DNA of 64,000 nucleotides from Xestospongia bergquistia (taxonomy: Eukaryota > Porifera > Demospongiae > Haplosclerida > Petrosiidae). The notes under the pieces were generated by a model, which saw only the letters and a list, made by a program, of their open reading frames with translations, was not told the origin of the DNA and searched no databases. The stretch covers positions 501,001-565,000 of the forward strand of contig OZ014421.1 in assembly GCA_963965975.1 (NCBI GenBank), given 5' to 3'. Positions 1 through 33,430 of the stretch are shown here, piece after piece (the first letter of the stretch is position 1; each line of letters opens with the position of its first letter). A program made the position numbers and the translations under genes.

Positions 1-3000
1 ACGGACTATAGCACTTACTACATCTCCTATTGTGTCACTTAATAGTACTTTAGCTCCACCCAATATTATATTTAATGATAGGGACTTCTCTCCTGATATA
101 ACTGTAGGATTAGTTGGAGTGGTGGTAATAGTAGGCGTGTCTGGTTGTACTAGAGCATCTGATGAAGAGGTGGGTGTTGTTCTAATATTGAATGGACAAA
201 TAAAATGAATGAAATAGTGATAATGGACAGATAGCATGACTGATAACTGATAATGGACAGATAATACAACTGATAATGGACAGATAGCATGATTGATAAC
301 TGATAATGGACAGATAATACAATTGATAATGGACAGATAATACAACTGATAATGGACAGATAGCATGACTGATAATGGACAGATAACGTGACTAATAATG
401 GACAGATAATACAACTGATAATGGACAGATAATACATCTGATAATGGACAGATAGCATGACTGATAACTGATAATGGACAGATAATATAACTGATAATGG
501 ACAGATAATACAACTGATAATGGACAGATAGCATAACTGATAATGGACAGATAACATGACTAATAATGGACAGATAATACAACTGATAATGGACAGATAA
601 TACAACTGATAATGAACAAATTATTAATTCATTTACTTTGTCTTCAATACTGATAATATATCAGTTACTATTGATAATAAGTTCACTATAGACTGTTGTT
701 GTAAATGTAATGTTAAAAATGACATATTCCCTTCAATAGCCAGTTTAGTAGATTTAAATGCTGTTTTATAATGAGGAGCTAAACGATTTGCCTAAATGAG
801 GTAGCCCCTAGTAATTAATAGTAATAATAATTAATATATTGACCTGTACTAAATGTAGCTTTACAAAGTGTTCATTATTTTCTGAGGACAAAATAGTTAC
901 TGAAGGATCTGAGAGAAAATAAAAATATTTATTAATATAATATCTTATGGTCTACAGTATGTGTCTTTATAATTCCACTTCTTTCTGTCCATTTGTCAAC
1001 CCACTCACCTTCCATTCATCCATTGATCCATCCATTCATCCATCCAGCTATCCTTCCATTCATCCATCCATCTATCCATTCATTCATCCATTTATCCCTA
1101 TACCTGTATTGTTGTATCCATGTTCAATAACTAATGAAGCTAATGTTAGTGATATAGAAGTATTCCATGTTTTAACATTACAGCCAAGACTTAGAGATGA
1201 TAAATTTAATGTCATATCATCTTTTTTAGTTGAGAATTGAATTGTAATCTATTAAATTAAATAATACATAAAAATATATATTGAGCATTTAATTGGACTC
1301 CATTGAAATACACATATATAAATTTAATATTTTATTATAAAAGCATTATTGCTATTATTTTAGTGGCCACGCCTACTTTTGGTAGCATGAAGTCAACCAA
1401 AACTTTAGTACTAGAGGCAGGAATAGATGAAGTGGGTGTGGCTTTTGGTTTAGACTCCTCCTCCTCGTCTTCTCCTTCACTAGCTGTAATAAATTCTTCC
1501 TCACCTAAAATGATTTATATCATATGACATTATGGAAAAGTCCTGTGATAATCACATGACATTGCATAGATATCTAGAACCTCATAAACAAAGAGAAATG
1601 AATCTTCCATTACATTTCCATTGAGGACTTTGGACAGTAAGTTACAAACCATTTATTATCTTATCTTCACTATACTGGGCTATACACAAATCACGTATGA
1701 AAATTTATTGTATTATTATCATGTCCAAGGGTTCAAGTCAATATTAACACAACCCCCTAAGAGGTCTACAAGAACTTTATGTGGATGATTCGTACACACC
1801 TTATTTTAATTTCATTTATTTAATTAATTATTTTTAATTAACTTACTGTCTTCTGCTTTCTCTTGTTGCAAAGCTAATTTTTCAACTGAAACACATTCCA
1901 CAATAGCCGATGTTGTCATGGTAACAGGCTCACTTATATCAGGATAACTCTGCAATTAATATCTATAGATAATTGAATTAATTATTAATTAATTACTTTA
2001 GCAACAGGAGCTGACTCAGTAGCAGATGGTATAGGGATACTTTGTAATAAAATCAGTAAATCTTTGAGATTTTTATCAGATAAACTGACAGCAATTTCTG
2101 GTAGTTGACATTTGATTTTAAAACTACAAATATATAATAAATAAATTATTAATTAATTAAATAGTTGATTAATTTGTACATAATGACAACAAAGCTACAG
2201 AAATATGACTAAAAATGTCTGTTGAGTAAAAGAAACATCTGACCAATCAGATTGCTAGAATTTTGCAAATGTGTTCTAGTAATGAGAGCAAAACAATATG
2301 TAGGATTATATATAATTGTGTGTGGGTGGGTGTGTACATATCATTTGATATATAATTCAACAAGGTCAAAAGGAGTACCATGAACAATACTAGAGTAATA
2401 GTCATGACGACCACATACATTTAATTCAATATCATCATTAGCTGTCTCATTAAGTGTCTTGATAAACCATGGCATTTTAGGAGAAGTACAACAGGTAGCC
2501 TCCTCTCTAGGACAGGCCTTACCATCCCAGAGGGGATCATTGGAATATAACTTCTTATGAATATAGGTATTAGATCCTGATTCACAGTAGTAATCATTAC
2601 CAACAAATGGTAAAGTATAGTTCATGTATTGACTGCCATTATTACAGGGACATTGATATGAACTTGTTCCTTGTTCATAATAACCTCCAGCATAAGTCCA
2701 AGTATGTTTACGAGGATTGTTACCATAGGTAAGAGTAACTCCATATGTCTTTATTTGAGAATTAAAACAGTTAACATTGTTAATATCACAATTAAAAGCA
2801 TGAGGATTTCCATACTGATATCCTCTCACTCGACCACATACCTTGGTATAGTTGAGACCATAAGTAGAGAAGAAAGCAGAGTTACAACCAGTATAGTTAG
2901 CATTAATCCAACATAAGTTGATATTAGAGATATTATATTGTACTAATCCAGGTGGACAAGATGAACCAGGTATACTCATGTTAACAAATGCTACTCTTGT

Positions 3001-6000
3001 CCAGCCTCCCTCTCCATCACAGTAACTACCTTCCATATCACAGTATATTTCAACCTGACTACCATTAGATAATGTTATATTATAATAACCTGAGGGAGCA
3101 GTAGGATATACCTCATATAATTGACTACATGAAGTATTAAATTCTGGACATGAAGTTGGACATATTGATGGACACAAAATGTAGAGTCTATGACCATCTT
3201 CACCTTGTATTTTAAATGTTTTTCCTCTGTTAGAGGGATGACAACAATACTGAAGATATAGTGAAGACTGATGACCATTACTATTACAGTTAGCCATACA
3301 ATAAGAGGATCCCTCAACAGAATAGGTCATTAAGAAAACAAGAGAGATAAATGACCAATATGGAGAATACATTGTAGTAAAGCAACAGACGAATATTGTT
3401 GCAGTCTTGACCAAGATAAAAGAGACTTATATTGGAGGAACTAATACAATAGCCTGGGAGATCTTACTTGACTTGATGTTTTGGCTTTATAGATACAATC
3501 TTATCACTGCCTGACAAGTTCTGCATGCCAAGTTTGATAATAACACACAGTTTAATATACAATTAATATTAAAAACCAATATATGTATTGTTAACCAGAA
3601 AACAACTAAGATTGCTTTCATTAGTATCAATAATAATCTAATAATCATGTTTGGCTGTGCCAAGCTTAATAATAACAAATGGTCTGTAACAATCAACTTG
3701 TTCTAGTCAAGGTCCATAGGCTCAATGTACTGTATACTGCATCTGCAATAAAGTCCTCATCAAAATAATAACTTTGTGTCATCTAGACAATGTTTATAGT
3801 ATGTAATTTATTATATTGTGTAGGTGATTTTGAGGGTGATAAATAAAATTAACTAGCCTACAATAAATGTCAGTACACATAGGAACTAATGAATATTATT
3901 ACTTTTTCCACAAGTGCTTTAAATTGAGTGTGATTGATTGAAGATTCTGAATTATTTGAGAAAGCATTTTTGAGAAGTTCCATAGCTTATGCCAAATCTT
4001 CAGTCTTCAAAGTTGGCTATAATCCTGGTAGTAAAGATGTTATCATATTGTACTAGTGCAGGTGGACAAGATGAACCAGGTACACTCATGTTAACAAATG
4101 TTACTCTTGTCCAGCTTTCTTTTCCATCACAGCGACTACCCTCCATATCACAGTACACTTCGACATGACTGCCATTAGATAATGTTATATTATAATAACC
4201 TGAGGGAGCATCAGGATTTGACTTAAGTATATAATACCATGATATGTGAGAGCACCATTTGGGTATAGTATCTGGACATATCACATAGGCAGTATGACCA
4301 TTGTCTTTAGTGACATGAATAATATCTCCTTTGTTTGAGGGAGAACAACAAAGTGCTTCATATTTAGTGAATGGTCTATGACCATTACTATCACAGTCAG
4401 TCATACAATAAGAGGCTCCTTCAAAAGAATTGGTTATTAGAAAAACAAGAAAGACAAACAAATCAGGAGAATACATTGTAGTAAACCAATGAGAAGGATT
4501 GGTATCACTGTAGATGTGACTAAGACAACCTTTGCTATTTACTATAAATAACAAGAACTGTAATTATAACATTCTTCTTATCTATACACAATGTAGTAGT
4601 AATAATTAGATGAATCAATTAAGAATAGTAGGAAGATTTATTGCCTGGAAAATATGACCTATCATTTGGTCTAGCAGTTTAGGTGTATTGGTCCAATAAA
4701 AATATTAGCCACATTTTGTGTGTATTTATTTAGTTATAATACACACACTATACAATGTATGTATATTTTATACAATACATTATATAGCATATCTTATAAT
4801 AAAATTCATAGCCTATACATTTGAATGGAAGTGTTTATATAAAAAAATGACAACAAAGTATTGTTTGCTAGAAAATGACTAAAAATGTAATAACAATAGA
4901 AACATTTGTAGCTGACAAATCAAATTGTTTAATGTATGTAAAATAGTCATAATAAAGTTAATGTAATAATTATGTGTGGGTGTGTACATTATTATTTAAT
5001 GTAAAGTTCAACAAGGTCAATAGGAGTACCACCAATATAATTTGGGCTACGATTATTTCCACACATAACCAACTCAATGTCATCATTAACAATCTCATTT
5101 AGTGTCTTAACAAACCATGGCAACTTAGGAGAAGTACAACAGTTAGCCTCATTACCAGGGCAGTCCTTACCATCCCAAAGTGTATCATTTGAATATAAGA
5201 TATAACCATTATCACTACTAGTTCCTGATTCACAGTAATAATCATTACCAATAAATGGTGCATAAAATGATCTTCCGTTACAAGGACAACTTTCTGAATA
5301 TGCTGTTTGTTCATAGACTCCTGAAGCGTAAGTCCAAATATGTTTACGAGGATTGTTACTATAAGTAAAAGCTATTCCATATGTCCTAACATCCTGTAGA
5401 TCAGAACAACCAGAATGAAGGCCAATAAAACAATCAAAAGCCACAGGATGTCCATACTGGTATCCTCTTACTCGACCACACACCTTGGTATAGTTGAGAC
5501 CATAAGTAGAGAAAAAAACAGAGTTACAACCAATATCATATTGGTATGTTGCATTAATCCAACATAAGCTGGTAGTAAAGATGTCATCATATTGTACTAG
5601 TCCAGATGGACAAGATGAACCGGGTACACTCATGTTAACAAATGCTACTCTTGTCCAGCCTCCCTCTCCATCACAGTGACTACCCTCCATATCACAGTAC
5701 ACTTCAATTTGACTACCATTAGATAATGTTATAATGTAATAACCTGAGGGAGGAGAATTTAATGACTGTAGTATGTCATAGCAGGAACTGAATTCTTGAA
5801 AACACCATTTGGGTATAGTAGCTGGACATTTTACAATGCCAGATTGACCATTGTCTTTAGTGAGGCGAATAATATTTCCTTTGTTTGAGGGAGAACAACA
5901 GAGTGCTTCATATTTAGTGAATCGTCTGTGACCATTACTATCACAGTCAGTCATACAATAAGAGGATCCCTCAACAGAACAACTTATTAGGAGAACAAGA

Positions 6001-9000
6001 AAAACAAATGACCAACCAGGAGAAAACATTGTAGTACAGCAATGAAGAAGGATGACTGTTTGACGCAACTAGTGATTTTTTGCATGTAATCATGTATAAA
6101 TTACTACTTGTTACTAAAAATATTACATTGGTTTCTGACATCACTTCAATATAGTAATAGACTATCCATTAAAATGATTGTAGTAGAATAAACAATTACT
6201 AACTGACACTGATCTATTATAATATTTTATTGTATATAATTCAATTAATGATAGTTATAGTACAACTTGTATAATACTAATGACTAGTCTAATAATGTTA
6301 ACATATATATGTTATAATAATGATTGACTAAACAGTGTTTAAAAAGAGAGGAAAGAAATTTTATCTTAGATTGAAATGTTTAAAAAAAAACCAGCACTTT
6401 GAAAAAGTAACTAATTAATATATTATTAATTATTACTACTAATTAAAGATGTGGACTAAAAAGCCACACCCCTTTGTCAAAACTCCTAACACTACTAACT
6501 GCATTGATGAGTATAGGGATATATTATTTGATATAGAGTTCAACAAGATCAAATGGAGTACCACCAAAATTATTACCACCAAAGTCATAACCACAAGCAA
6601 TCAACTCGATATTATCATTAACTTTCTCATTTAATGTCTTAACAAACCATGGCTGCTTAGGAGAAGTACAACAGGCAGCCTCGTCTCCAGGACAATCCCG
6701 ACCATCCCAGAGGGGATCATTGGAATATAACTTGTCATAAATGTAGATATTATTTCCTGATTCACAGTAGTAATCATTACCAACAAATGGTATAGTATAG
6801 TTCATATAGGGACTGCCATTATTACAGGGACAAAAACGTGAGTCTATTCCTTGTTCTTTGTAACCTCCAGCATAAGTCCAAGTATGTTTACGAGGATTGT
6901 TACCATAGGTAAGAGTAACTCCATATGTCCTTATTTCAGAATTAAAACAGTTAGCATTGTTAATATAACAATTAAAAGCATGAGGATTTCCATACTGGTA
7001 TCCTCTCACTCGACCACACACCTTGGTATAGTCGAGACCACAGTTAGAAAAGAAAGCAGAGTTACAACCAGTATAGTTATCATTAATCCAACATAAGCTG
7101 ATATTAGAGATATTATATTGTACTAGTCCAGGTGGACAAGATGAACCAGGTATACTCATGTTAACAGATGCTACTCTTGTCCAGCCTCCCTCTCCATCAC
7201 AGTGACTACCCTCCATGTCACAGTACATTTCAACATGACTACCATTAAATAATGTTATAATGTAATAACCTGAGGAAGCAGTAGGATGTAAATCATATAA
7301 TTGACTACATGAACTGAATACTGGTGGATGTGCTGATGGACATAAGATGTAGACTCTGTGACCATCTTCACCTTGTATTTTAAATACTTTTCCTCTGTTA
7401 GAGAGATGACAACAATACTGAAGATATAGCGAAGACTGATGACCATTACTATTACAGTTAGCCATACAATAAGAGGATCCCTCAACAGAATAGGTCATTA
7501 AGAGAACAAGAGAGATAAATGACCAATATGGAGAACACATTGTAGATAAAGCAACTGATATTGTTGTAGTCTTGACCAAGATAAAAGAGACTTATATTAG
7601 AGAAACTAATACAATAGCCCAGAAGATCTTACTTGACTTGAAATTTTGGCTTTATAGGTACAATCTTATGACTGCCTGACAAGTTCTGCATGCCAAGTTT
7701 AATAATAACATATAGTCCAATATATATTTAATGTTAAAAACCAATATATGTATTGTTAACCAGAAAACAACTAAGATTGCTTTCAGTTGTAACACTAACA
7801 ATCAATTTACCATGTTTGGGTGTGCCAAGCTTGAAAATAACAAATAGTCTTGGACAATAAACTTTCTATTCTAATTAAGGGCCATAGACTCAAAGTACTG
7901 TATATTACATCTGCAATAAAGTCCTCATCAAAATAATAACTTTGTGTCATCTAGACAATGTTTATAGTATGTAATTTATTATATTTTGTAGGTAATTTTG
8001 AGGGTGATAAATAAAATTAACTACCCTACAATAAATGTCAGTACACATAGCAACCAATGAATATTATTACTTTTTCCACAAGTGCTTTAAATTGAGTGTG
8101 ATTGATTGAAGATTCTAAGTTATTTGAGAAAACATTTTTGGGAAGTTCCATAGCTTCTGCCAACTCTTCAGTCTTCAAAGTTGGCTATAATCCTGGTATT
8201 AAAGATGTCATCATATTGTACTAGTCCAGGTGGACAAGATGAACCAGGTTTACTCATGTTAACAAATGCTACTCTTGTCCAGCCTTCCTCTCCATCACAA
8301 TGACTACCCTCAGTATATTTCAACCTGACTACCATTAGATAACGTCAAAAGAACTTGAAGCCCAAGAGTTGTCACTAAAGCCAAGGAAATCTAAGGACGC
8401 ATTAACAATGATTATATACATGGTAGTCCTAGAGTTTTAGGACTCTTTATTAATTGAGAATTTAATATCAAAACACAAAACATGTTGGAAAATTACTAAG
8501 AAAGTCAGCCAAATATCAGTGAAATATATTTTCTGACATCAATCAAATTACTAAAATTTTGTAAATGTATTTTAGTAATGAGAGCTAAGTAATATGTAGT
8601 ATAATTCATAATTGTGCGTGGGTGTGTACATATCATTTGATATAAAATTCAACAAGGTCAAAAGGAGTACCTCCACTAAGAGTAAATAAATAGTGGTGAT
8701 GACCACATACATTCAACTCAATATCATCATTAACAATCTCATTTAGTGTCTTAATAAACCATGGCATTTTAGGAAAAGTACAACAGGTAGTCTCGTCTTC
8801 AAAACACTCTTGACCATCCCAGAGAGGATCATTGGGATAAAACTTATTATAATAAGTATTAGTTCTTGATTCACAGTAGTAATCATTACCTACAAATGGT
8901 ATAGTATAGTTTATGTATTGACTGCCATTATTACAGGGACAATTATTTGAATTTGTTCCTGCTTCACGGTAACCTCCAGCATAAGTCCAAGTATGTTTAC

Positions 9001-12000
9001 GAGGATAGTTACCATAGGTAAGTGTAACTCCATATGTCCTTATTTCAGAATTAAAACAGTTAGCATTGTTAATATCACATTTAAAAGCATAAGGATATCC
9101 ATACTAGTATCCTCTAACTCGACCACACACCTTGGTATAGTTGAGACCATAGGTAGAGAAGAAAGCAGAGTTACAACCTTGATAATTATTATTAATCCAA
9201 CATAAGCTGGTATTGAAGATATCATTATATTGTACTAATCCAGGTGGACAAGATGAACCAGGTACACTCATGTTAACAAATGCTACTCTTGTCCAGCCTC
9301 CTTCTCCATCACAGTGACTACCCTCCATATCACAGTACACTTCAACTTGACTACCATTAGATAATGTTATATTATAATAACCTGAGGGAGCAGTAGAATT
9401 TGACTGTAGTGAATCATAGCAGGAACTGATGTTTTGAGGACACCATTTGGGTATAGTATCTGGACATATTACAATCCCAGATTGACCATTATCTTTAGTG
9501 ACATGAATAATATCTCCTTTGTTTGAGGGAGAACAACACAGCTCTTCATACTTAGTGAATATTCTTAGACCATTACTATGACAGTCAGTCATACAATAAG
9601 AGGATCCCTCAACAGAACAGATTGTCAAGAAAACAAGAGAGATAATTAACAAGTCAGGAGAACACATTGTAGTAGAGTAATGAAGAAGGGTCAGTATCAC
9701 TGTAGACGTGACTGAGATATGCCAGGTGTGTATGTAGTATATAGTGAAAATAAACTAATAAGTTACTCTAAAGCATTCCTCTATTAATCTATTATACTCA
9801 ATACATTCCAATGTAGTACAAGTGATAGTGGTTGAGCATAGCAACAAAGAAGGATTAATATTACTGTTGATTTGACAAATACAAAAAGGGACTTAATAGT
9901 ACGGGCTAGAACATATGACCATTTACTAAATATTTACTAAATATTAAATTCTGGACATGAAGTTGAACGTACTGATGGACATAATAAGATGTAGACTCTC
10001 TGACCATATTCATCTTGTATTTCAAATTCTTTTCCTCTGTTAGAGAAAAGACAACAATACTGAAGATATAGTGAAGATTGATGACCATTACTATTGCAGT
10101 CAGACATATGATAAGAAGTTCCCTCAATAGAATAGGTCATTAGGAGAACAAAAAAGATAAATGACCAGTACGGAGAATACATTGTAATAAAGCAATGAAG
10201 AAAGATTGGTATCTTTGTAGATGTGACTAGGACAATCTTTGCTATATACTATAAATAATAAGAACTGTTACTATAGCATTCCTCTATTACTCATCTATAC
10301 CCAATATAGCAGTAATAATTTGGGGAAAGTAACAAGGAGTAGTAGGAAGATTTATGGCCTGAAAAATATGACCAATCATTTGGTTTAGCTGTTGAGTTGT
10401 GTTGATGTAGCAAACATTTAGCCATACTTTGTATACATTACTTACATACAGTATACAATGTATGTATAAAAAATAGAGTATATCTTATAATGAAATTCAT
10501 AGCCCATATGGAAGTGAATGACAACAAAGTAATATGTACTAGAAAATGACTAAAATGTAATAACAATAGAAACATTTGTAGCTGACAAATCAAATTGTTT
10601 AATGTAAGCAAAATAGTCATAATAAAGTTAATATAATAAGTATGTGTGGATATGTACAATATTATTTAATGTAAAGTTCAACAAGGTCAATAGGAGTATC
10701 ACCAATATAACTTGGGCCACCATTACCTCCACACATAACCAACTCAATGTCATCATTAACAATCTCATTTAGTGTCTTAACAAACCATGGCAACTTAGGA
10801 GAAGTACAACAGTTAGCCTCATTACCAGGACAGTCCTTACCATCCCAAAGTGTATCACTTGAATATAAGATATAACCATTATAACTACTAGTTCCTGATT
10901 CACAGTAATAATCATTACCAACAAATGGTGCATATACTGATCTGCCATTACAGGGACAACTTTCTGTAAATGCTGTTTGTTCATAGACTCCTGAAGCGTA
11001 AGTCCAAATATGTTTACGAGGATTGTTACTATAAGTAAAAGCTACTCCATATGTCCTAACTTCCTGTAGATCAGAACAACCAGCATCATTGTCAAGAAAA
11101 CAATCAAAAGCCACAGGAAGTCCATACTGGTATCCTCTTACTCGACCACACACCTTGGTATAGTTAAGACCAAACGTAGAGAAGAAAGCAGAGTTACAAC
11201 CAGGATGATTTTGATATGTTCCACTAATCCAACATAAGCTAGTAGTAAAGATGTTATCATATTGTACTAGTCCAGGTGGGCAAGATGAACCAGGTACACT
11301 CATGTTAACAAATGCTACTCTTGTCCAGCCTCCCTTTCCATCACAGTGACTACCCTCCATATCACAATACACTTCAACTTGACTATCATTAGATAATGTT
11401 ATAATGTAATAACCTGAGGAAGCAGTAGAATTTGATGACTGTAGTATATCATAGCAGGAACTGAATTCTTGAAAACACCATTTGGGTATAGTAGCTGGAC
11501 ATTTTACAATGGCAGATCGACCATTGTCATTAGTGATGCGAATAACATGTCCTTTGTTTGAGGGAGAACAACAGAGTGCTTCATACTTAGTGAATGATCT
11601 CTGACCATTACTATCACAGTCAGTCATACAATAAGAGGATCCCTCAACAGAACAGCTTATTAGAAGAACAAGAAAAACAAATGACCAACCAGGAGAAAAC
11701 ATTGCAGTACAACAATGAAGAAGGATGACTGTTTGACGCAACTAGTGATATTTAGCATGTAATCATGTATAAATTACTATACTTGTTACTAAAAATATTA
11801 CATTGGTTTCTGACATCACTTCCATATAGTAATAGACTATCCATTAAAATGATTGTAGTAGAATAAACAATTACTAACAGTCACTGATCTATTATAATTT
11901 TTTGCATATAATTCAATTAATGATAGTTATAATACAACTTGTATAATACTAATGACTAGTCTAATAATGTTAATATATATATGTTACAATAATGATTGAC

Positions 12001-15000
12001 CAAACAGTGTTTAAAAGAAAGAAATTTTATCTTCAACTGAAATGTTAAAAAAATAACCAGCACTTTAAAAAATAACTACTCTTTTCTTTAAGTATTACTA
12101 ATTATTACTACTAATTAAAGGTGTATACTAAAAAACCACACCCCTTTGTCAAAAATATTAACACTACTAACTGCATGTGTGAGTAGAGGGATATACGTAT
12201 CATTTAATATAAAGTTCAACAAGATCAAAAGGAGTACCACCAAAATAACTAAAGCCTTGATCATAACCACAAGCAATCAATTCAATATCATCATTAACTG
12301 TCTCATTTAATGTCTTAACAAACCATGGCATCTTAGGAGAAGTACAACAGGTAGCCTCACGTCCAGGACAGTCTTGACCATCCCAGAGGGGATCATTGGA
12401 ATATAAACCATAACCAGAATAAGTAGCACCACTTCCTGATTCACAGTAGTAATCATTACCAACAAATGGTATATTATAGTTTACAAGTTGACTGCCATTA
12501 TTACAGGGACAAAAACGTGAGAAAGTTCCTTGTTCAGAGTCACCTGCAGCATATGTCCAAATATGTTTACGAGAATTGTTACCATATGTAAAAGTCACTC
12601 CATATGTTTTTACTTGAGGATGAGCTCTATAACAATACCAGGTGGGATGCATATAACAAATAAAACCCTCAGGATATCCATATTGGTATCCTCTAACTCG
12701 ACCACACACTTTGGTATAGTTGAGACCATAAGTAGAGAAGAAAGTAGAGTTACAACCAGAATAAACATTTGTTACATTAATCCAACATAAGCTGGTATTA
12801 AAGATGTCATCATATTGTACTAATCCAGGTGGACAAGATGAACCAGGTTTACTCATGTTAACAAATGCTATTCTTGTCCAGCCTCCCTCTCCATCACAGT
12901 GACTACCCTCCATATCACAGTATATTTCAACATGACTACCATTAGATAATGTTATAATGTAATAACCTGAGGGAGCAGAAGGATGTAAATCATATAATTG
13001 ACTACATGAACTGAATACTGGACATGAAGCTGGATGTGCTGATGGACATAAGATGTAGACTCTGTGACCATCTTCACCTTGTATTTTAAATACTTTTCCT
13101 CTGTTAGAGATATGACAACAATATTGCAGATATAGTGAAGGTTGGTGACCATTACTATCACAGTCAGTCATACAATAAGAGTATCCCTCAACAGAATAGG
13201 TTGTTAGGAAAACAAGAAATATAAATGACCAATATGGAGAACACATTGTAGTAAGCAACTGATATTGTTGTAGTCTTGACCAAGATAAAAGAGACTTGTA
13301 CTGGAGGGATAAAATTCAATGCCCTAGGAGATCTGCTAAAAATATCATAGTTTACTTGATGTTTTAGTTTTATAAATGTAATCTTGTTACTGCCTGACAA
13401 GTTCTGTATGCCAAGTTTAATAATAACATATAGTCTAATATCTATTTAGTATTAGAAGCCAATACATGTAATAGTAGCCAGGAAACAAGATTGCTTTCAT
13501 AGTAATAATGGGATATTAAATTAGTAATGTTTGCAAAGATTGAAGACTGACAACGTTAAGTATTTTTCCCAAAAGGTTAGAAGGTTAGATAAGTCATGTC
13601 TGTTATAAATAAATTCATTAGTTGGTATGTGTGTATCACAGTCAGTAGGTGTAACATTCAAGCTCATTCAATGTAATTTCATTGAAGTACTATCAGTCTA
13701 TTAGCTACTCCAAAGTAACCAATGGCATCAACAAAACTTCCATTACTTTAAACAAGAGTGCTTTGAAATGGGTGTGGTTGATCAAAAGCTTCTGAGTTAC
13801 TTGAGAAAACATTTTGAGCAAGTCCATAGATTCAGTAAACACTTCAGTCTTCAAAGTTAACAATAATCCTGATATTAAAGATGTTATCATAATTGTTGTA
13901 CTAGTCCAGATGGACAAGATGAACCAGGTACACTCATGTTACCAAATGCTATTCTTGTCCAGCCTCCCTCTTCATCACAATGACTACCCTCCATATCACA
14001 GTACACTTCAACCTGACTACCATTAGATAATGTTAAAAGAACTATACCATTTGAAGCACAAGATCTGTCACTAAAGCCTACGAAATATGAGCAAAAATCA
14101 ACAATGATTGTATACATGGTAGTTCCTATAGTTCTAGGACTCTTTATTAATTGAGAATATAATACCAAAGCACAAAACATGTTGGAAAATTACTAAGAAA
14201 CTTTGTCAAGTAGTAGAGAAATATATTTTCTGACATCTGACCAATCAAATTACTAGAATTTTGCAAATGTATTTTAGTAATGAGAGCTAAACAATATATA
14301 ATTGTGTGTGGGAGTGTGTTCATATGAGTGGGTGGGTGTGTACATACTATTTGATATAAAATTCAACAAGGTCAAAAGGAGTACCTCCACTAGCAGTATA
14401 AGTAGAGCTATAATGACCACAAACGTTCAACTCAATATCATCATAAGATATCTCATTAAGTGTCTTGATAAACCATGGCATTTTAGGAGAAGTACAACAG
14501 GTAGCCTCATCTCTAGGACAGTTCTGACCATCCCAGAGAGGATCATTAGGATAAAACTTATTATAATAGGTACTAGTTCCTGATTCACAGTAGTAATCAT
14601 TACCAACAAATGGTATAGTATAGTTCATGTATTGACTGCCATTATTACAAGGACAACGATATGAATTTGTTCCTTGTTCTTTGTAACCTCCAGCATAAGT
14701 CCAAGCATGTTTACGAGGATTGTTACCGTAGGTAAGTGTCACTCCAAATGTCTTTATTTGAGAATTAAAGCAACTGCTATTGCTAATATCACAACTAAAA
14801 GCATAAGGATATCCATACTGGTATCCTCTTACTTGACCACACACCTTGGTATAATTGAGACCATAAGTAGAGAAGAAAGCAGAGTTACAACCAGAATAAT
14901 AGAGATTAATCCAACATAAGCTGATATTAGAGATATTATATTGTACTAGTCCAGGTGGACAAGATGAACCAGGTACACTCATGTTGACAAATGCTACTCT

Positions 15001-18000
15001 TGTCCAACCTCCTTCTCCATCACAGTGACTACCTTTCATATCACAGTACACTTCAACCTGACTACCATTAGATAATGTTATATTGTAATAACCTGAGGGA
15101 GCAGTAGAATTTGACTGTAGTAAATCATTGCAGGAACTGATGTTTTGAGGACACCATTTTGGTATAGTATCTGGACATATCACATAGCCAGTATGACCAT
15201 TATCTTTAGTGATATGAATAATATCTCCTTTGTTTGAGGGAGAACAACAGAGTGCTTCATATTTAGTGAATGATCTCTGACCATTACTATCACAGTCAGT
15301 CATACAATAAGAGGATCCCTCAACAGAACAGCTTATTAGGAGAACAAGAAAGATAAATAACAAACCAGGAGAACACATTGTAATATAGCAATGAAGAAGG
15401 ATCAGTATCACTGTAGATGTGACTAAGACAATCTTAGGTATTTAGTACAAATATTAAGAACTATAATTATAGCATTCCTCTATCACTCATCTATATCCAA
15501 TATAGTAGTAGTATTCAAGTGAAGCAACAAAGAATAGTGGGAATATTTATGGCCTGGAAAATATGACAAATCGTTTAACATCATTAAGATATGCCAAGTT
15601 ATGTACGTAGTATATAGTGAAATAAACTAATAAGTTACTCTAAAGCATTCCTCTATTATTCTATTACACTCAATACATTCCAATGTAGTACAAATGATAG
15701 TGGTTGAAGATAGCAACAAAGAAGGATTAATATCACTGTTAACTCTGTTGACTTGACTAATACAAAAAGGGACTTATAGTATGGCCTAGAATATATGACC
15801 ATTTACTTGAACATGCCTTTTGTTTGAAGGAGAACAATAAAGTGCTTCATACTTAGTGAATGATCTCTGACCATTACTATCACAGTCAGTCATACAATAA
15901 GAGGAACTCTCAATAGAACAGCTTATTAGGAGAACAAGAAAAACAAATGACCGATCAGGAGAAAACATTGTAGTACAACAATGAAAAAGGATGACTGTTT
16001 GACGTGACTAGTGATACTTAGTATGCAATCATGTATAAGTTACTATATTTGTTACTAAAAATATTACATTGGTTTCTGACATCATTTCCATATAGTAATA
16101 GACTATCCATTAAAATGATTGTAGTAGAATAAACAATTACTAACAGACACTGATCTATTATAATATTTTATTGTATATAATTCAATTAATGATAGTTATA
16201 GTACAACTTGTATGATACTAATGACTAGTTTAATAATGTTAACATATGTATGTCACAATAGTGATGGAACAGTGTTTAAAAAGAGAGGAAAGAAATTTTA
16301 TCTTAAACTGAAATGTTAAAAAAATAACCAGCACTTTGAAAAAGTAACTTATCTTAAAGTATTACTTATTATTGCTACTAATAAAAGGTGTGGACTAAAA
16401 AGCCAGACCCCTTTGTCAAACTGCATGCATAGAGGAATGTACATATCATTTGACATAAAATTCAACAAGGTCAAAAGGAGTACCACCAAAATAACTAAAG
16501 CCTTGATCATAACCGCAAGCAATCAATTCAATATCATCATTAACTGTTTCATTTAATGTCTTAACAAACTATGGCATCTTAGGAGAAGTACAACAGGTAG
16601 CTTCACATCCAGGACAGTCTTGACCATCCCAGAGGGGATCATTGGGATATAAATCAAAACCAGAATAAGTAGCACCACTTCCTGATTCACAGTAGTAATC
16701 ATTACCAACAAATGGTATAGTATAGTTTACAAGTTGACTGTCACTATTACAGGGACAAAAACGTGAGAGAGTTCCTTGTTCGTAGTCACCTGCAGCATAA
16801 GTCCAAATATGTCTACGAGAATTGTTACCATATGTAAAAGTCACTCCGTATGTTTTTACTTGAGGATGAGCTCTATAACAATACCAGGTGGGATGCATAT
16901 AACAAATAAAACCCTCAGGATATCCATATTGGTATCCTCTAACTCGACCACATACTTTGGTATAGTTGAGACCATAAGTAGAGAAGAAAGTAGAGTTACA
17001 ACCAGAATAAACATTTGTTACATTAATCCAACATAAGCTGGGTGTCATCATATTGTACTAATCCAGGTGGACAAGATGAACCAGGTTTACTCATGTTAAC
17101 AAATGCTACTCTTGTCCAGCCTCCCTCTCCATCACATTGATTACCCTTCATATCACAGTACACTTCAACCCGACTACCATTAGATAATGTCAAAGGAACT
17201 ATACCATTTGGAAGCCCAAAAGCTGTCACTAAATCTAAGGATGCATGAACAATGAATGGACTATTTACTAAGTGAGAATATAATATCAAAGCACAAAACA
17301 TGTTGAAATATTACTAAGAAAGTTTGCCAATTAGCAGAGAAATATATTTTCTGACATCTGACTAATTAAATTGTTAGAATTTTGTAAATGTACTTTATAA
17401 TAATGAGAGCTAAATAATATGTAGTATAATTCATAATTGTGTGTGGGTGTGTGCATGAGTGGGTGGGTGTGTACATATTATTTGATATAAAATTCAACAA
17501 GGTCAAAAGGAGTACCTTTAATATCAGTAGAGGAATGGTCATTACCACCACATACATTCAACTCAATATCATCATTAGCTGTCTCATTTAATGTCTTGAT
17601 AAACCATGGAATTTTAGGAGAAGTACAACAGGTAGCCTCATCTCCATGACAATCCTCACCATCCCAGAGGGGATCATTGGGATAAAACTTCCAATAAATG
17701 TAGTTATTAGTTCCTGATTCACAGTAGTAATCATTACCAACAAATGGTAAAGTATAGTTCATGTATTGACTGCCATTATTACAGGGACAATGATATGCTC
17801 TTGTTCCTTGTTCTTGGTAACTTCCAGCATAAGTCCAAGCATGTTTACGAGGATTATTACCATAGGTAAGAGTAACTCCAAATGTCCTTATTTCAGAATT
17901 AAAATAGTTGTAATTGTTAATATTATAATCAAAAGCATAAGGATGTCCATACTGGTATCCTCTAACTCGACCACATACCTTGGTATAGTTGAGACCATAG

Positions 18001-21000
18001 GTAGAGAAGAAAGCAGAGTTACAACCAGAATAAACTATATTAATCCAGCATAAGCTGATATTAGAGATGTTATATTGTACTAGTCCAGGTGGACAACATG
18101 AACCAGGTACACTCATGTTAACAAATGCTACTCTTGTCCAGCCTCCCTCTTCATCACAGTGACTACCCTCCATATCACAGTATATTTCAACCTGACTACC
18201 ATTAGATAATGTTATATTATAATAACCTGAGGGAGCAAAAGGATATGACAGTTGTATATCATGGCATAAAGTATTTTGAGGACACCATTTCGGTATAGTG
18301 TCTGGACATACCACATAGCTAGTACGACCATTATCTTTAGTGATATGAATAATATCTCCTTTGTTTGAGGGAGAACAACACAGCTCTTCATATTGAGTGA
18401 ATAGCCTCCGACCATTACTATCACAGTCAGTTATACAATAAGAGGATCCCTCAACAGAACAGATTGTTAAGAAAACAAGAAAGACAATTAACAAACCAGG
18501 AGAACACATTGTAGTATAGCAATGAAGAAGGATCAGTATCACTGTAGATGTGACTAAGATATGCCCAGTTATGTATGTGATATGTAGTAAAAAAAACTAA
18601 TAAGTAACACTAAAGCATTCCTCTATTACTTGACTATGCTCAATATATTCCAATATAGTACTGTCTAGTTGAGTATAGTAACAAAGGATTAATATCACTA
18701 TTAACTTGATTAATGCAAAAAGGGATAATAGTAAGAAGATATATGACCTGAAAAATATAACCAATTTTTTGATTGATTAAAAATATAGCAACAAAGCTAT
18801 ACCAACAAATATTGCTTAGGTTTGCAGTGTATTCCCTAAACAGTCTCAATAAAGTCAACAATAACTACAGCATATAATGTGTGTGCGCACATATGTATGC
18901 ATTTGTATGTACAGGTTGTTATTGTTATGTATAGGTTGTTGTTATTTAATGTAAAGTTCAACAAGGTCAATAGGAGTGCCAGCAATATAAGAATCATCAC
19001 TGTAACCACACATGCTCAATTCAATATCATCATTAACAGTCTCATTTAATGTCTTAACAAACCATGGCATCTTAGGAGAAGTACAACTGGTAGCCTCACA
19101 TCCAGGTCAGTCCTGACCATCCCAAAAAGGATCATTAGGATATAACTCATAACCATTGTTGTTACTAGTTCCTGATTAACAGTAGTAATCATTACCAACA
19201 AATGGTATAATATAGTTCATGTATTGACTGCCATTATTACAAGGACAACTATCTCTGTATGTTCCTTGTTCATATGAACCTCCAACATAACTCCAAATAT
19301 GACTACAAAAATTGTTACCATATGTAAGAGTGCCTTTAGTTCAGGATTACAATTATAGTCACTAATATAACAATGAAAAGCCCAAGGAGTTCCATATTCA
19401 TATCCTCTTACTTGACCACACACCTTGGTATAGTTGAGACCATAAGGAGGAAAGAATGTAGAATTACAAACAGCCCTTGAATTAGCGATGTAAGCTCTTT
19501 CATGAATATAACATAAGCTGGTATTGAAGATGTCATCATATTGTACTAGTCCAGGTGGACAGGATAAACCAGGTTCACTCATGTTAACAAATGCTACTCT
19601 TGTCCGACCTCCCTCTCCATCACAGTAACTATCCTTCATACCACAGTACACTTCAACCTTAATACCATTAGATAATGTTACATTGTAATAACCTGAGGGA
19701 AAGGTAGACTTTATCTTGTGTGACTACATGAACTAATATTAAACTCTGGACATGATATTGGAGGTAATGATGGACACAAAATGTAGATATTATGACCAGC
19801 TTCATGTTGTATAAATAGCAGAGAAATATATTTTCTGGCATCTGACCAATCAAATTACTAGAATTTTGTCAATGTAATTTAGTAATAAGAACAATTGTGT
19901 GTGGGTGTGTGCATGAGTGGGTGTGTGGGTGTGTACATATCATTTGATATAAAATTCAACAAGGTCAAAAGGAGTACCACCAACAGTACTAGAGTAATAG
20001 TCATCACCACATACATTTAATTCAATATCATCATTAGCTGTCTCATTAAGTGTCTTGATAAACCATGGCATTTTAGAAGAAGTACAACAGGTAGCCTCAT
20101 CTCCTGGACAATCCTGACCATCCCAGAGGGGATCATTGGAATATAAGATATAACCATAATTATAGGTATTAGTTCCTGATTCACAGTAGTAATCATTACC
20201 AACAAATGGTATAGTATAGTTCATGTAGGGACTGCCATTATTACAGGAACAATAAACTGAGTTTGTTCCTTGTTCACGGTAACCTCCAGCATAAGTCCAA
20301 GTATGTTTACTAGGATTGTTACCATAGGTAAGAGTTACTCCATATGTCCTTATTTGAGAATTAAAACAGTTATAATTGTTAATATCACAATAAAAAGCAT
20401 AAGGAGCTCCATACTGATATCCTCTAACTCGACCACATACCTTGGTATAGTTGAGACCGTATGTAGAGAAGAAAGCAGAGTTACAACCTCGATAATTATC
20501 ATTAATCCAACATAAGCTGATATTAGAGATATCATATTGTACTAGTCCAGGTGGACAAGATGAACCAGGTACACTCATGTTAACAAATGCTACTCTTGTC
20601 CAGCCTCCTTCTCCATCACAGTGACTACCTTCCATATCACAGTATATTTCAACCTGACTACCATTAGATAATATCATATTATAATAACCTGAGGGAGCAG
20701 TAGAATTTGACTGTAGTAAATCATAGCAGGAACTGATGTTTTGAGGACACCATTTGGGTATAGTATCTGGACATATCACATAGCCAGTATGACCATTATC
20801 TTTAGTGATATGAATAATATCTCCTTTGTTTGAGGGAGAACAACAGAGTGCTTCATACTTAGTGAATATTCTTAGACCATTACTATCACAGTCAGTCATA
20901 CAATAAGAGGATCCCTCAACAGAACAGATTGTCAAGAAAACAAGAGAGATAATTAACAAGTCAGGAGAACACATTGTAGTAGAGTAATGAAGAAAGGTCA

Positions 21001-24000
21001 GTATCACTGTAGACGTGACTAAGATGTGCCAGGTGTGTATATAATATATAGTGAAAATAAACTAATAAGTTACTCTAAAGCATTCCTCTATTATTCTATT
21101 ACACTCAATACATTCCAATGTAGTACAAGTGATAGTGGTTGAGCATAGCAACAAAGAAGGATTAATATTACTGTTGATTTGACAAATACAAAAAGGGACT
21201 TAATAGTAGGAAGGTTTATGGTCTAGGAAATAGGACCAATTACTTGGCTTGAATGGTTTAGCCATATTGACATATTAAAACACCCACACTTTGTGTACAT
21301 TTATTATATAATATATAGTTTCAGTTATCAATACATATATACCATACTAACCATTTATTTATTTTTACATATCATTTGAATATAAGACATAACCATTAAA
21401 TTTGACTATTAATATCTGCCAAATAAGTAAGAAACATCATATTATTTGTGTCTCATTCACAATAGTAATTATTACCAACAAATATTGCTTAGGTTTGCAA
21501 TGTATTTCCTAAATAGTCTCAATAAAGTCAACTAAACAATAACTACAGCATATAATGTGTGTGTATGTGTGTCTGTATAGGTTGTTATTTAATGTAAAGT
21601 TCAACGAGGTCAATAGGAGTGCCAGCAATATAAGAATCATCACTGTAACCACACATGCTCAACTCAATATCATCATTAACTGTTTCATTTAATGTTTTAA
21701 CAAACCATGGCATCTTAGGAGAAGTACAACAGGTAGCCTCACGTCCAGGACAGTCCTGACCATCCCAGAGGGGATCATTAGGAAATAACTCATAACCACT
21801 GTAGGTATTAATTCCTGATTCACAGTAGTAATCATTACCAACAAATGGTATAATATAGTTCATGTATTGACTGCCATTATTACAAGGACAACTATCTGAG
21901 TATGTTTGTTGTTCATGCCATCCTCCAGCATAAGTCCAAATATGTTTACGAGGATTGTTATTGTAGGTAAAAGTAACTCCATATGTCTTTAGTTCAGCAT
22001 TACAATTATAGTCATTAATATAACACTGTAAAGCCCAAGGAGTTCCATATTGGTATCCTCTTACTTGACCACACACCTTGGTATAGTTGAGACCATAAGG
22101 AGGAAAGAATGTAGAATTACAAACAGCCTTTGAATTAGTGATGTGAGCTCTTTCATGAATATAACATAAGCTGGTGTTAAAGATGTCATCATATTGTACT
22201 AGACCAGGTGGACAAGATGAACCAGGTACACTCATGTTAACAAATGCTACTCTTGTCCAGCCTCCTTCTCCATCACAGTGACTACCCTCCATATCGCAGT
22301 ACACTTCAACCTGACTACCATTAGATAATATCATATTATAATAACCTGAGGGAGCAGTAGAATTTGACTGTAGTAAATCATAGCAGGAACTGATGTTTTG
22401 AGGACACCATTTGGGTATAGTATCTGAACATATTACAATCCCAGATTGACCATTGTCTTTAGTGACATGAATAATATCTCCTTTGTTTGAGGGAGAACAG
22501 CAGAGTGCTTCATATTTAGTGAATGATCTCTGACCATTACTATCACAGTCAGTCATACAATAAGAGGATCCCTCAACAGAACAGCTTATTAGGAGAACAA
22601 GAAAGATAAATAACAAACCAGGAGAAAACATTGTAGTATAGCAATGAAGAAGGTTTGGTATCACTGAAGACGTGACTAAGATATGCCCTGGTATGTATGT
22701 AGTATATAGTGAAAATAAACTAATAAGTTACCCTAAAGCATTCCTCTATTATTCTATTACACTCAATACATTCCAATGTAGTTGAACATAGCAACAAAGA
22801 AGGATTAATATTACTGTTGACTTGACAAATACAAAAAGGGACTTAATAGTAGGAAGGTTTATGGTCTAGGAAATAGGACCAATTATTTGGCGTGAACAGT
22901 TTAGCCATATTGACATATTAAAACACCCACACTTTGTATACATTCGTTATATAATATATAGTTTCAGTTATCAATATATATATACCATACTAACCTTGGT
23001 AACCTTGTATCATTAGGAAGTAGAGACTTCTCCAGTTGTAGATCAAGTTGTAATGGTTTAAGTATATGATCTTTCTTCTCTCTACAACTCTTACCTATTA
23101 AAGATAGCATGGTTGACATGACTGACCATGTGCTATACCTGAGCCAGACAGACCGATATTAATATCCTTTAAATTGACATTAAAATAATCATAAAAAGCT
23201 TCTTCAAGTTCTTTTAGAGTAGCCTCCTGTTACAAGAAAATAATACAATTCACACTGTCCCAACTTATACTATCACCTTCCTATCTCACACACTCACCTG
23301 CACATCGGGCACTTGATGTTTCATATCACTAGTCACTTGTAAACTCCCCAAATCCACAATAAGAACTCTCCCACTCTCACTAACCACACCATTCTCAGGC
23401 ACTAATATCACTGGAGAATATACCAAAATATCTAAGTCTAACAGCTTCCGCTCATCAATAGCATGTTGTAGCCCCGCCCTAGTCTGGGTCTTTAATTGAT
23501 CCAATGTTGACGCAGCCATTGTGGACATAGTACGAAAATGAAGACCTTGTGGTAGTTTAAACATGCCAATAATTTCATTGATAGTGTGACTGTCATATGA
23601 TAATTCTACTGGTTGTAGTGAGAGTTTCACTTGTTGATCAACTGGTTTAGTTAGTGGTTTTAGCTCAAAATGTACAGAGAGTAATGGTCCTACAAAATAC
23701 GACATCATTATGACATCGTTATTAAATGCTTACGATCAGAAGAACTGTCTGAGGTTAGTATTTGTGGGTGAAGTCCCTTAGGGGATGTCCCTGTCATCAC
23801 GATATGTCGTATACCAGCATCAATGCTAGAATAGATTGTAATAGAAGTTAGTGTGTTTGGTCTCTCTCTCTTTCTCTCACCTTATATTTTTAGAAGCAGG
23901 TCGATGTTTCAATTGGACTGATATATCGTCAATCATTAATGCAGCAATACTGCAGTACATATCATAAAACAATAAAATACAAACCACACCCACCTATCTG

Positions 24001-24955
24001 AATCATTAACCAACTTCAAAGACACTTTATTAATCTTGCCATTAACAATATGAGCCACAAACTATAAAAGAAATAAACTAATATACAGGGGAACCTCTTT
24101 ATAATGGACACCATGGGACACTGTCCTTAGCATAGAGGTGTCCTTAATATAGAGGTTATATAATATAGTATGGGACTAGAGCAAGTGTCCTTCATAGTGA
24201 CCATTAAGAGAGGTACCAATATAAATGTACCTCTTTAGGATAGTCTGCTGCCTTGCCATATTCACTATACCCAATGGCTTTATACAACTTGTCTTTTTCC
24301 TCTTGTAGCTCTTTCTCTGTAATGGACAATGATTAATAATAATAATAATAATGAGTCTGCTTTAATTATCTTAATTAAAGGGGTTTTCTCTTCATACATT
24401 ATTGTCCTTTTTGGTTGACTTAATTAAAGGGGCATCCTCACATTCTTTACATTGGTATTATGAACTTAAGTCCATTCTATTTATTGGAATAGTGACACCT
24501 ATTATAGGTGAGGATGCCCCTTTAATTACACCAATTAAAACAGTTATAATATAATTATATGTACCTGTTGGTAAAGGTATCTCTTCTGTCTTTGTTTGTC
24601 CTCCACCTCCTAACCATCCACTAGCCCAGCCTAGCCATGAAGAACTCTTCTCTTCTGTTTTTGCTATTTTCTCAGCCTAATTAAAATAATTAATAGGATT
24701 TTGCTCATATAGTACAATTAATAAACTAATTAACAGGGATTTACTCATATACCTTGGTCTCAGCTAGTTGTCTGCATACTGTGATATTGAATAAGTCAAG
24801 ATCATCTTCTAAATCCTATATTATGTAATGATCATGTGACAGTCATGTGATTATCAAGCCACACCCACCATAAGTCTAGCTAGGACGTAAGGTGGTGGAG
24901 ATTGTGTGGTAAGTTTCTGAGTATATAGCTCAACGTAATCTTTACAACGTTTTCT

Positions 24956-24987
<32 letters not shown>

Positions 24988-27900
24988 TGAGAGAGAGAGA
25001 GAGAGAGAGAGAAAAAGAGAGAGAGTGAGAGAGAGACAGACAGACAGACAGAGAGAATAATAACACCGCCCACTCTCTTTCCTACCGATGTTCCTTAATA
25101 TGGTCCCAAGACCACATCTCAAGTTTTCTTTTAACATATTCTTGAACAACAGCATTATAAGCAAAATGCCACCTGTAAAAACACTAAGACAATATACAAT
25201 ACATTAATGTACATACCAATCTCTACTATGACATGATACTGTACCAGATAATGGTCTGTACTTCCTGAACTTTCTCCCAACAGCTAATCTGTCTAGATAG
25301 TCTATCAAAACAACAGCATCTTGATACTGTATAGGAATATAGTGTATAAACTAATAGTTTATATAAGAATATGTACTTGATCCTTTTCTAGTATTACTGA
25401 TACATCATGTAATGATAACTCCATTGATAACTGTATAGAAAGAGTAGGTGTAATGGATGAATGATTTGAATGGATGGATGAATGAATGGGTAAATGGATG
25501 GAGGAAGTGTTGTATGGATGTATAAATAGATGTAACAATGGATGAATAGATCAATGAATGGATTTAACAATGGATGAATAGAAATGGATGGACTGATAGA
25601 CAAAATAAATGACAAAATGGATGAATGAAAATAACAAAGTATTGGATGATAGACAGATGAATGAACAATGGACAGATACACAAATAATGGACAGCTAACT
25701 TACTTGAGGTATTTGACCTCCAGGACGAGTACTAGCCTGTATTTGTATGACACCAGACAATGGTCTTAAAACTACCCAATATTATAATATTAACACTATA
25801 ATATATACTAAACTTACTATAGTGTATATTAGAATCAACACCTGATGTAGATCGACATATATCCTTCAATAATATATTCTAATTATAGGGGCAACCTCTA
25901 ATTATAATATAATAATAATATTAACATTATATACCTTCCAGTCATCAGGTGGAGTTGTCCCCAATATTGTTGTATTTGAGTTCCAATAGATAGCCAGACA
26001 ATCCAGTCTGACCAGCTACAAAAACCAGTTTAACTATATAGACATCACCTTTCATATTTTACCTTAAAAATAAGTTGAGGAGACTCACTAGGAGCAGTTG
26101 TCTTGACAATATTCCATTTACTGTCAGTACTCTATAGTAGAGGACATATATGTACTTAAAATTAACACTAGACTCTTAGTATGTGGAAGGAAGGTAAAGT
26201 CTATAATATATTGGATAAATGATTACATACTATGTGTAGTAGAAACTCTTATAAAGGACATTCAGGACACTTGTTCTAGTCCCATACTAATACTTAATGC
26301 ATTATATAACCTCTATATTGAGGACAGCTGTATATTAAGGACAGTGTCCCATACTGTCCAGTATAAAGAGGTTCCACTATAACATTAGTCCAGATAAACA
26401 GCTAGTTAAGTGGGTGAATTTAGGGAAACCCCATTAATCTATACTTATATTCAACTCTCTTCCTATACACAAAGAGCTGAAAATTAAAACACCCATACCT
26501 GTAATAGCAGTGAGCTAAGTGTTATCCCAAAAGCAAACGGTCTTGATGGTGTAGTCATCTAGTATACAACATATTGTCAATATATAACAGCTAGTATATA
26601 TAAACTTACATTGTCTTCATATTGAATATGAATATTTTTAATAGTTAACTGTACATTGCGTACTATTTGAGTGATAAGCTTCTCCACAAAACCAGGATCT
26701 GTGTCTGATGAGTAGAAGCATATCAGTACTTAATAATCCATCAATGCTTTTGTCCTATTCATGCATCCATCAATCCATTCATTCATCCATTTATCCTATT
26801 CATGCATCCATCAATCCATCCATTGGCTGTCCATCTGTTCTATCACATGTACCTGGAATCTTTTTACTTTGTTTACGAGCTTCTTCTATTTCTTTAAGTT
26901 GTCGTTGTTTCTTCTCACGTTGTTCTTTGACATCTTTATTATGATCATATTTAACAGCTGCAGAAAATAAATAAATTATATGAACAACAGTGGACCCCTT
27001 TTTATTTAATTGATATTAGTCAGTAATCAATTCCTTTTAAATAAAGGAGTGTCCTCAAAATAACATTATCTGATGTTTGTGTGCATACAAGGATTAATTA
27101 TATAAATTGGAACATTTCTATAGTAACACTATGAAAACTGTCCTTAATATAGAGGTGTCTTAAGAGTGTATAATACACTAAAGTATTAGTATGGGACTAG
27201 AACAAGTGTCCTCAATATAGAGGTTGTATAATAAACTAAAGTATTAGTATGGGACTAGAACAAGTGTCCTCAATATAGAGGTTATATAATACACTAAAGT
27301 ATTAGTATGAGACTAGAACAAGTGTCCTCAATATAGAAGTTGTATAATACACTAAAGTATTAGTATGGGACTAGAACAAGTGTCCTCAATATAGAGGTTA
27401 TATAATAAACTAAAGTATTAGTATGGGACTAGAACAAGTGTCCTCAATATAGAGGTTGTATAATACACTAAGTATTAGTATGGGACTAGAACAAGTGTCC
27501 TCAATATAGAGGTTGTATAATAAACTAAAGTATTAGTATGAGACTAGAACAAGTGTCCTCAATATAGAAGTTGTATAATAAACTAAAGTATTAGTATGGG
27601 ACTAGAACAAGTGTCCTCAATATACAGGGTGTACTTAATAGTGTATAATGCATTGTAATGTAATACCTGTCTCTGGGCCAGCTACAATATATACTCCATC
27701 CACTTCAATAAGAACAGGATCATTATACAAGTTCTTCCAAGGAATTTTCAAAGTTAACTTATCTAAAGAAATATTCGTTATTTAGAAACTTATCCAACGT
27801 ATTAAGAATAAAATATCAAATTACAGTTTTTACCAAAGTTCCATACTATACAGTATTAGTTGTCATTAATATATAACAGTCATTACTTGTCTTATGTAGT

Positions 27901-33117: not shown

Positions 33118-33224
33118 AATTCTAACATAACATATCATTTGTATAACTAGTTGGTTTTATTATCAATTCAGTATTATAGTATGTTCATTTGACCTTGATT
33201 CTAGTGCACTAGACTATAAATGTA

Positions 33225-33430
33225 ATATTATTATATATTACAGACCAATGCATTCTCTTTTAACTCTAACTTTTTCAGCTAAACATTACCTACAATAAAA
33301 CAAGTTTAGAAACAATACAACTATTTCACTGAAAATTAAATAGCTTATTCTTCCAAATAGCTACTCGCAGTTGAGAAGAGTCTAAATGTTTCTTTCACAT
33401 AAAGGCCAAGAAATACCATGATGGAGGCTG
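33225..33430 (-). pseudogene. Relic of VPS13 exons 1-2
   Basis: Plus-strand sequence ACCAATGCATTCTCTTTTAA at 33242-33261 is identical to the end of VPS13 exon 2 (28101-28120). The following 170 bp match through intron 1 into exon 1 (TAGCTACTCGCAGTTGAGAA) up to the start-codon region ATACCATGATGG. Exon 1 has small insertions and deletions. This places a dead copy of the VPS13 5' end 5 kb from the original, in the same orientation. Confidence 0.85.

Follow-up and report, generated by a model that had tools for sequence, protein, structure and literature searches.

The introns of an animal gene can house a large family of small intronless genes, as the KRTAP genes illustrate within a human gene that we take to be TSPEAR/C21orf29. 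The title of a 2004 paper, as cited in PMC4180150, assigns 21 KRTAP genes to the introns of a different human gene; an excerpt of the citing article reports gene conversion within KRTAP10, and a single table row of PMC13115880 places an intron variant at TSPEAR, KRTAP10-7 and KRTAP10-6. Intronic genes are also common in sponges and ctenophores, with same-strand nesting, according to portions of the papers on Aphrocallistes (PMC10282587) and Hormiphora (PMC8527503), which give 2,432 nested genes for Aphrocallistes vastus, list 3,358 for A. queenslandica and describe glassin as a single-exon nested gene. Here we describe a locus in a 64-kb stretch of the Xestospongia bergquistia genome (hereafter the window: C11:501001-565000, C11 being contig OZ014421.1, of an assembly with 21 contigs and 146.5 Mb), where nine intact genes and eight relic regions of one family occupy a single intron of a predicted VPS13 gene. 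This array is an extreme new case of the known pattern of genes living in introns. It resembles KRTAP in being a large family of small intronless genes within an unrelated host; the KRTAP products, however, are mammalian structural hair proteins, and by the title cited above their genes occupy "introns" in the plural, whereas the sponge genes encode predicted secreted-type fibrinogen-like proteins, share one intron, all follow the host strand and have VPS13 as host. The nested sponge and ctenophore genes, as described in the portions cited, include no tandem family in one intron, whereas the VPS13 intron has nine intact copies of such a family. Among the titles and abstract openings listed in literature searches, none reported this locus. 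The locus as a whole is best explained, at a probability of roughly 0.82, if a member of the family became nested in VPS13 intron 24, multiplied in place and was later partly copied out.

The host gene was modelled with a custom splice-aware search that started at the minus-strand ATG at 28302 and limited introns to 2,500 nucleotides (nt). The upstream exon count varies from 18 to 24 with the penalty and thresholds, the small exons being penalty-dependent; we used a version with 23 upstream exons and kept the exon numbers (24, 25 and so on) of an earlier note on this DNA, here called the original prediction. The relevant parts of the gene are:

23139-28302, minus strand: VPS13 exons upstream of exon 24, with the start codon at 28302 (gene model, Pfam)
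22995-23094, minus strand: VPS13 exon 24, the last before the array, ending in phase 2 (gene model, protein alignment across the junction)
2124-22994, minus strand: the intron that holds the array, 20,871 nt (gene model, tblastn)
1997-2123, minus strand: VPS13 exon 25, the first after the array (gene model, protein alignment; copy at C11:2321122-2320994)
1-1949, minus strand: VPS13 exons 26 onward, the gene running past the window start (gene model, Pfam)

Exon 24 ends at 22995 (...CCAAG/GTTAGT), and under all settings the best phase at the 22994 donor is 2, with two codon bases left over; exon 25 starts in mid-codon at 2123 (TTTGTAG/TTTTAAAATC). With the two bases carried over, about 70 more exons were modelled downstream of the 2123 acceptor, some of the small ones doubtful; seven of the downstream exons start inside the window, and the model reaches about 24.4 kb beyond the window start. 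The Pfam profile VPS13_N scores 584 bits on the upstream exons alone and 621 bits on the joined sequence, its best stretch crossing the exon 24/25 join, while the first 607 downstream amino acids (aa) alone match VPS13_M and not VPS13_N, and exons farther downstream match VPS13_VAB (1.1e-13) and VPS13_C (4.4e-22). Human VPS13C (9yqp) and VPS13A (9yg4) both align through this join, gap-free at the join itself. On the combination of a VPS13_N region, a VPS13_C domain and unbroken VPS13A/C homology over the junction, the host is identified as a VPS13A/C-type lipid-transfer gene on the minus strand, and 22995 would be joined to 2123 in its mRNA. The exon borders and phase of the original prediction are thereby confirmed. 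Its claim that the exons within the window fit in phase holds in that open reading continues across the join; the coding length, given there as 3108 nt, is instead 2132 + 904 = 3036 nt, or 3060 nt with a doubtful 24th upstream exon.

As had been predicted, the array intron is exceptional in a gene of mostly short introns: the other 92 modelled introns reach 1,928 nt at most, their median being 126.5 nt, in a comparison that takes in 71 of 81 downstream exons, the last ten having been dropped as noise past the VPS13 end. When splice sites were scored over 57 introns, a further-pruned subset of the model, the exon 24 donor (AAG/GTTAGT) ranked ninth. A single simple pattern for recursive-splice (ratchet) sites found none in the intron. 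Other VPS13-family loci are present on contigs C6 and C9 and at two more places on C11, which leaves the essential-type role that the original prediction gave the host tentative. A candidate second intact copy of the array-bearing VPS13, the gene at C11:1.02-1.03 Mb, proved to be a diverged paralogue (23-77% per aligned piece), and none of the array-family matches listed below falls there. The two VPS13-family loci at C11:934700 and C11:1030822 have near-equal best matches and are perhaps mutual duplicates. The window itself contains a relic, at 33207-33414, that matches the VPS13 exon 1-2 region (28064-28264) at 84% and lies 5 kb upstream of the true start.

Within the intron, nine intact single-exon genes of 338-348 aa were found both as open reading frames (ORFs) and by tblastn. 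A tblastn search with all nine proteins yielded 13 further pieces, which group into eight relic regions. In the order of host transcription the contents are:

21585-22631, minus strand: intact gene 1, 348 aa
20975-21352, minus strand: 90% copy of the gene 1 flank (22632-22995)
19940-20974, minus strand: intact gene 2, 344 aa
18945-19812, minus strand: relic, three pieces in different frames
17478-18509, minus strand: intact gene 3, 343 aa
16449-17211, minus strand: relic, two pieces
15810-15968, minus strand: relic, N-terminal 53 codons
14347-15378, minus strand: intact gene 4, 343 aa
13896-14156, minus strand: relic, internal part
12200-13246, minus strand: intact gene 5, 348 aa
10662-11702, minus strand: intact gene 6, 346 aa
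9943-10182, minus strand: relic, N-terminal 79 codons
8636-9667, minus strand: full-length copy with one internal stop (also among the genome-wide matches)
8189-8459, minus strand: relic fragments
6524-7540, minus strand: intact gene 7, 338 aa
4992-6029, minus strand: intact gene 8, 345 aa
4021-4476, minus strand: relic, N-terminal 155 codons
2341-3372, minus strand: intact gene 9, 343 aa

All nine intact ORFs therefore lie inside one VPS13 intron, with phase and homology continuing across 22995/2123. The same queries gave no match in the window outside the intron, none of the 124 self-match pairs is inverted, and the spacers between intact genes measure 494 to 3,121 nt. Nesting in intron 24, same-strand tandem copies, predicted secreted-type products and the tally of nine intact genes with eight or more relics, all put forward in the original prediction, are in this way supported.

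The exported block with its host exons is the least expected part of the locus. At a distance of 1.8 Mb, the 20-kb block C11:2310485-2330479 (loci L036-L038) consists almost wholly of pieces that resemble the window locus at 80-95% identity in a changed order. One run in it comprises the array end, the intron end and VPS13 exons 25-34, and hence a second copy of these exons stands beside array genes. A second uninterrupted succession of array, intron end and exon 25 lies at C11:2321246-2320994, and its exon 25 copy encodes an identical protein over 43 aligned residues. The copies of exons 25-34 are 97.8% identical to those of the window, gap-free and open, the aligned introns between them being 94.1% identical; over 468 codons, synonymous divergence (dS) is 0.053 and nonsynonymous divergence (dN) 0.013, a ratio of 0.25, and nine of ten donor sites are intact, one being changed. 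The copied run ends at window position -2146, where it is fused to the equivalent of window 11369, a position within the gene 6 counterpart. Three window genes (those starting at 2341, 4992 and 12200) find their nearest relative in the block, with support of at least 97/92. As the window locus is the only place known here with a whole VPS13, copying most likely ran from the window to the block; the array would then probably already have adjoined exon 25 when the copying took place, a point against misassembly.

It is this duplicate that bears most directly on the alternative of an assembly artefact, in which an array from elsewhere was wrongly inserted between two exons of VPS13. Tandem repeats are difficult to assemble, the C11:2.31-2.33 Mb block is very similar, and the exon 24 edge, the only one without an independent duplicate, depends on the sequence and the protein alignment. 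We nevertheless hold this alternative to be quite improbable, as the window is free of N bases, the 5' flank of gene 1 continues without a break into exon 24, where the donor is plausible, and the array-intron-exon 25 junction is present twice, with introns about 6% apart; this twice-assembled junction is the strongest evidence here against misplacement. At the same edge, the homology of the flank copy at 20975-21352 ends within one base of the exon 24/intron border. The closeness of this duplication edge to a splice site is a curiosity, perhaps a chance one; beyond the copy, a 200-nt test for an exon 24 remnant gave no significant likeness, 31 of 500 shuffles matching it.

The claim that a whole expanding family is housed in the one intron is not borne out. 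The genome-wide list holds 127 matches, a lower bound as 116 of 994 candidates were scored; among the matches listed, 11 of the 127 lie in the VPS13 intron and the remainder on contigs C1, C2, C4, C8, C9 and C13 and elsewhere on C11. One cluster, at C11:0.70 Mb, has an NHL ORF (plus strand) on one side and an AIF-1 ORF (minus strand) on the other; another, at C8:1.32-1.39 Mb, is flanked by a dephospho-CoA kinase on the minus strand and by an ORF on the plus strand that has no Pfam match. Since the flanking ORFs are on opposite strands, both clusters look intergenic, on readings of short flanks rather than gene models. By eye, no host gene was recognised at C11:2.31-2.33 Mb. A midpoint-rooted tree was made of 27 coding sequences, the nine of the window and 18 others hand-picked from the best matches; it omits three loci that lack a clear full ORF, the short row C8b_1348 and any copies containing stops. 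In this tree the window genes interleave with those of C11:2.31-2.33 Mb, and 11 members from C1, C8 and C13 form a separate group (support 97/96). That these members group apart suggests that the family was probably already dispersed when the VPS13-intron array diversified. Three family genes on C1 (10648503, 10668464 and 10688383) lie about 20 kb apart, two of them identical in coding sequence, and probably represent a recent large tandem duplication.

The array genes carry two N-terminal types, A and B, which form clean groups. Trees of the two gene parts, made from the 16 sequences from C11, conflict: over the first 94 codons the type A genes come together with full support, while for the rest of the gene a single clade of the same six genes is rejected (approximately unbiased test, p 0.0004). 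The genes are thus mosaics of the sort expected from unequal crossing-over or gene conversion, and unequal crossing-over appears to be a plausible motor of array growth. Their uniform orientation is what tandem duplication from one founder would yield and hence gives no independent evidence of selection. Between array members (36 pairs) mean dN is 0.197 and mean dS 0.274, with dN/dS 0.72.

Over the 60 nt upstream of the ATG, the nine array genes resemble 11 members located on other contigs, of which two are identical in coding sequence (mean score 13.3 against 8.2 for shuffled sequence, standard deviation 1.7); the next 60 nt are barely alike (10.6 against 9.2 shuffled), and anything beyond is at chance level. 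No consistent splice acceptor was found ahead of the nested ATGs. Taken together, these results lean towards independent genes, each of which would be transcribed on its own. The same observations bear on the highly improbable alternative that the nested ORFs are not genes but alternative 3' exons of VPS13, a notion suggested by their common strand and their position within the presumed transcribed region. Against it, each ORF has its own ATG and a hydrophobic start (as judged by eye), no consistent acceptor precedes the ORFs, relatives are located outside VPS13 in apparently intergenic clusters, and the 60 nt next to the ATG are common to the array and family members on other contigs.

The array proteins start with a hydrophobic stretch, judged by eye, which suggests that they are of a secreted type. 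Each contains 23 or 24 cysteines along with 4 to 11 motifs for N-glycosylation, and 19 of the 24 cysteine-majority columns are invariant as against 134 of the 307 other ungapped columns. In both of the members scanned (two of the nine), the NCBIfam family NF040941 (GGGWT fibrinogen-like domain) matched above its cut-off (E 1.8e-8). The nearest solved chains are XEEL and intelectins, weak matches over about 50 residues (for XEEL, E 5.8e-4 by sequence and 1.3e-3 by profile). The array proteins thus share with fibrinogen-related proteins and intelectins an N-subdomain of about 50 residues with the signature YCDM..GGWT. They differ from them in the C-terminal 200 residues, which had no match in any search made, and in that Pfam Fibrinogen_C was matched by two of the nine members, weakly (best E 9.8e-4), and not by the first, so that a complete domain was not recovered. 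No relatives were found in the genome-contig and viral-contig collections scanned. In an excerpt of PMC6208332, several fibrinogen-domain genes of Dysidea avara change expression in response to microbial molecules, some up and some down; by analogy the array proteins may serve in microbe or self recognition, though the Dysidea genes may belong to a different family.

Taken together, these observations suggest how the locus could have arisen. The founder would have been a member of a genome-wide single-exon family of secreted-type, cysteine-rich, fibrinogen/intelectin-like proteins, which came into intron 24 of a VPS13A/C-type gene in host orientation. Tandem duplication and unequal recombination in place would have preserved the orientation while producing mosaic genes and relics. 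Probably each nested gene would form a separate transcription unit, a short promoter-proximal region lying beside its ATG, and VPS13 would still be transcribed across the array, the whole 20.9 kb being spliced out. Later, part of the array together with VPS13 exons 25-34 would have been copied to the site 1.8 Mb away and rearranged.

Several points weigh against this scenario. Not every array piece in the 2.31-2.33 Mb block has to be a direct copy, since the family is repetitive. The dN/dS of the array pairs fits relaxed as well as diversifying selection. AlphaFold2 on the nine window proteins, with 9 alignment rows, gave a pLDDT (predicted local distance difference test) of 34.9. AATAAA or ATTAAA occurs within 260 nt after the stop in four of nine genes, so the gene ends are ill-defined. 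The genes also resemble one another over the first 60 nt downstream of the stop (12.5 against 9.0), and the likeness before the ATG may therefore reflect plain common descent. For the host, the exon 25 acceptor is weak (rank 48 of 57), and the scores of the true pair are equalled or exceeded by 101 of the 1026 internal AG sites and by 16 of the 1426 internal GT sites.

The weak acceptor lends itself to another interpretation, by which the array ends VPS13 transcription in intron 24, like an intronic switch, so that VPS13 would be cut to about 710 N-terminal aa, the downstream exons being expressed separately or decaying. Nested transcription can indeed force intronic polyadenylation of a host, as excerpts of PMC13309782 (on H13/Mcts2) and PMC3192792 describe. 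We consider such a split improbable, however, as the downstream exons stay in phase to the VPS13_C domain, exon 25 begins in mid-codon, exons 25-34 differ from their copy by 2.2% as against 5.9% in the introns between, and sense AATAAA occurs in the intron at chance level (13 found, 13.4 expected). The latter count also speaks against a separate idea, that sense AATAAA had been depleted as a safeguard of the host. As an observation in its own right, antisense AATAAA is in excess in window 2124-22994 (38 found, 24.4 expected, standard deviation 5.1).

If an uninterrupted VPS13 with nested genes is accepted, nine same-strand genes in one intron pose the problem of interference between host and nested genes in an extreme form: to complete VPS13, transcription has to pass across nine other genes. 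As nested transcription can truncate a host, according to the excerpts just cited, the VPS13 locus offers a good test case, and the block 1.8 Mb away a natural comparison, with close relatives of the array genes in place without the full host. The locus would show a fast-changing secreted-type family growing in an intron and spreading host exons by segmental duplication. A bolder extension, which we think rather unlikely, regards the VPS13 intron as a gene nursery, a recombining array that makes mosaics of recognition-type proteins and exports blocks along with host exons, the exported exons 25-34 perhaps being read as a chimeric transcript or VPS13 fragment. That these exons may still be read is suggested by their open, gap-free alignment, nine of ten intact donors and dN/dS of 0.25.

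Finally, a 58-bp minisatellite (GTCCTCAATATAGAGG...) is repeated on both strands in introns and spacers, at window positions 27167-27633, 44173-44282, 45591-45792 and 51688-51922, as well as outside the window.

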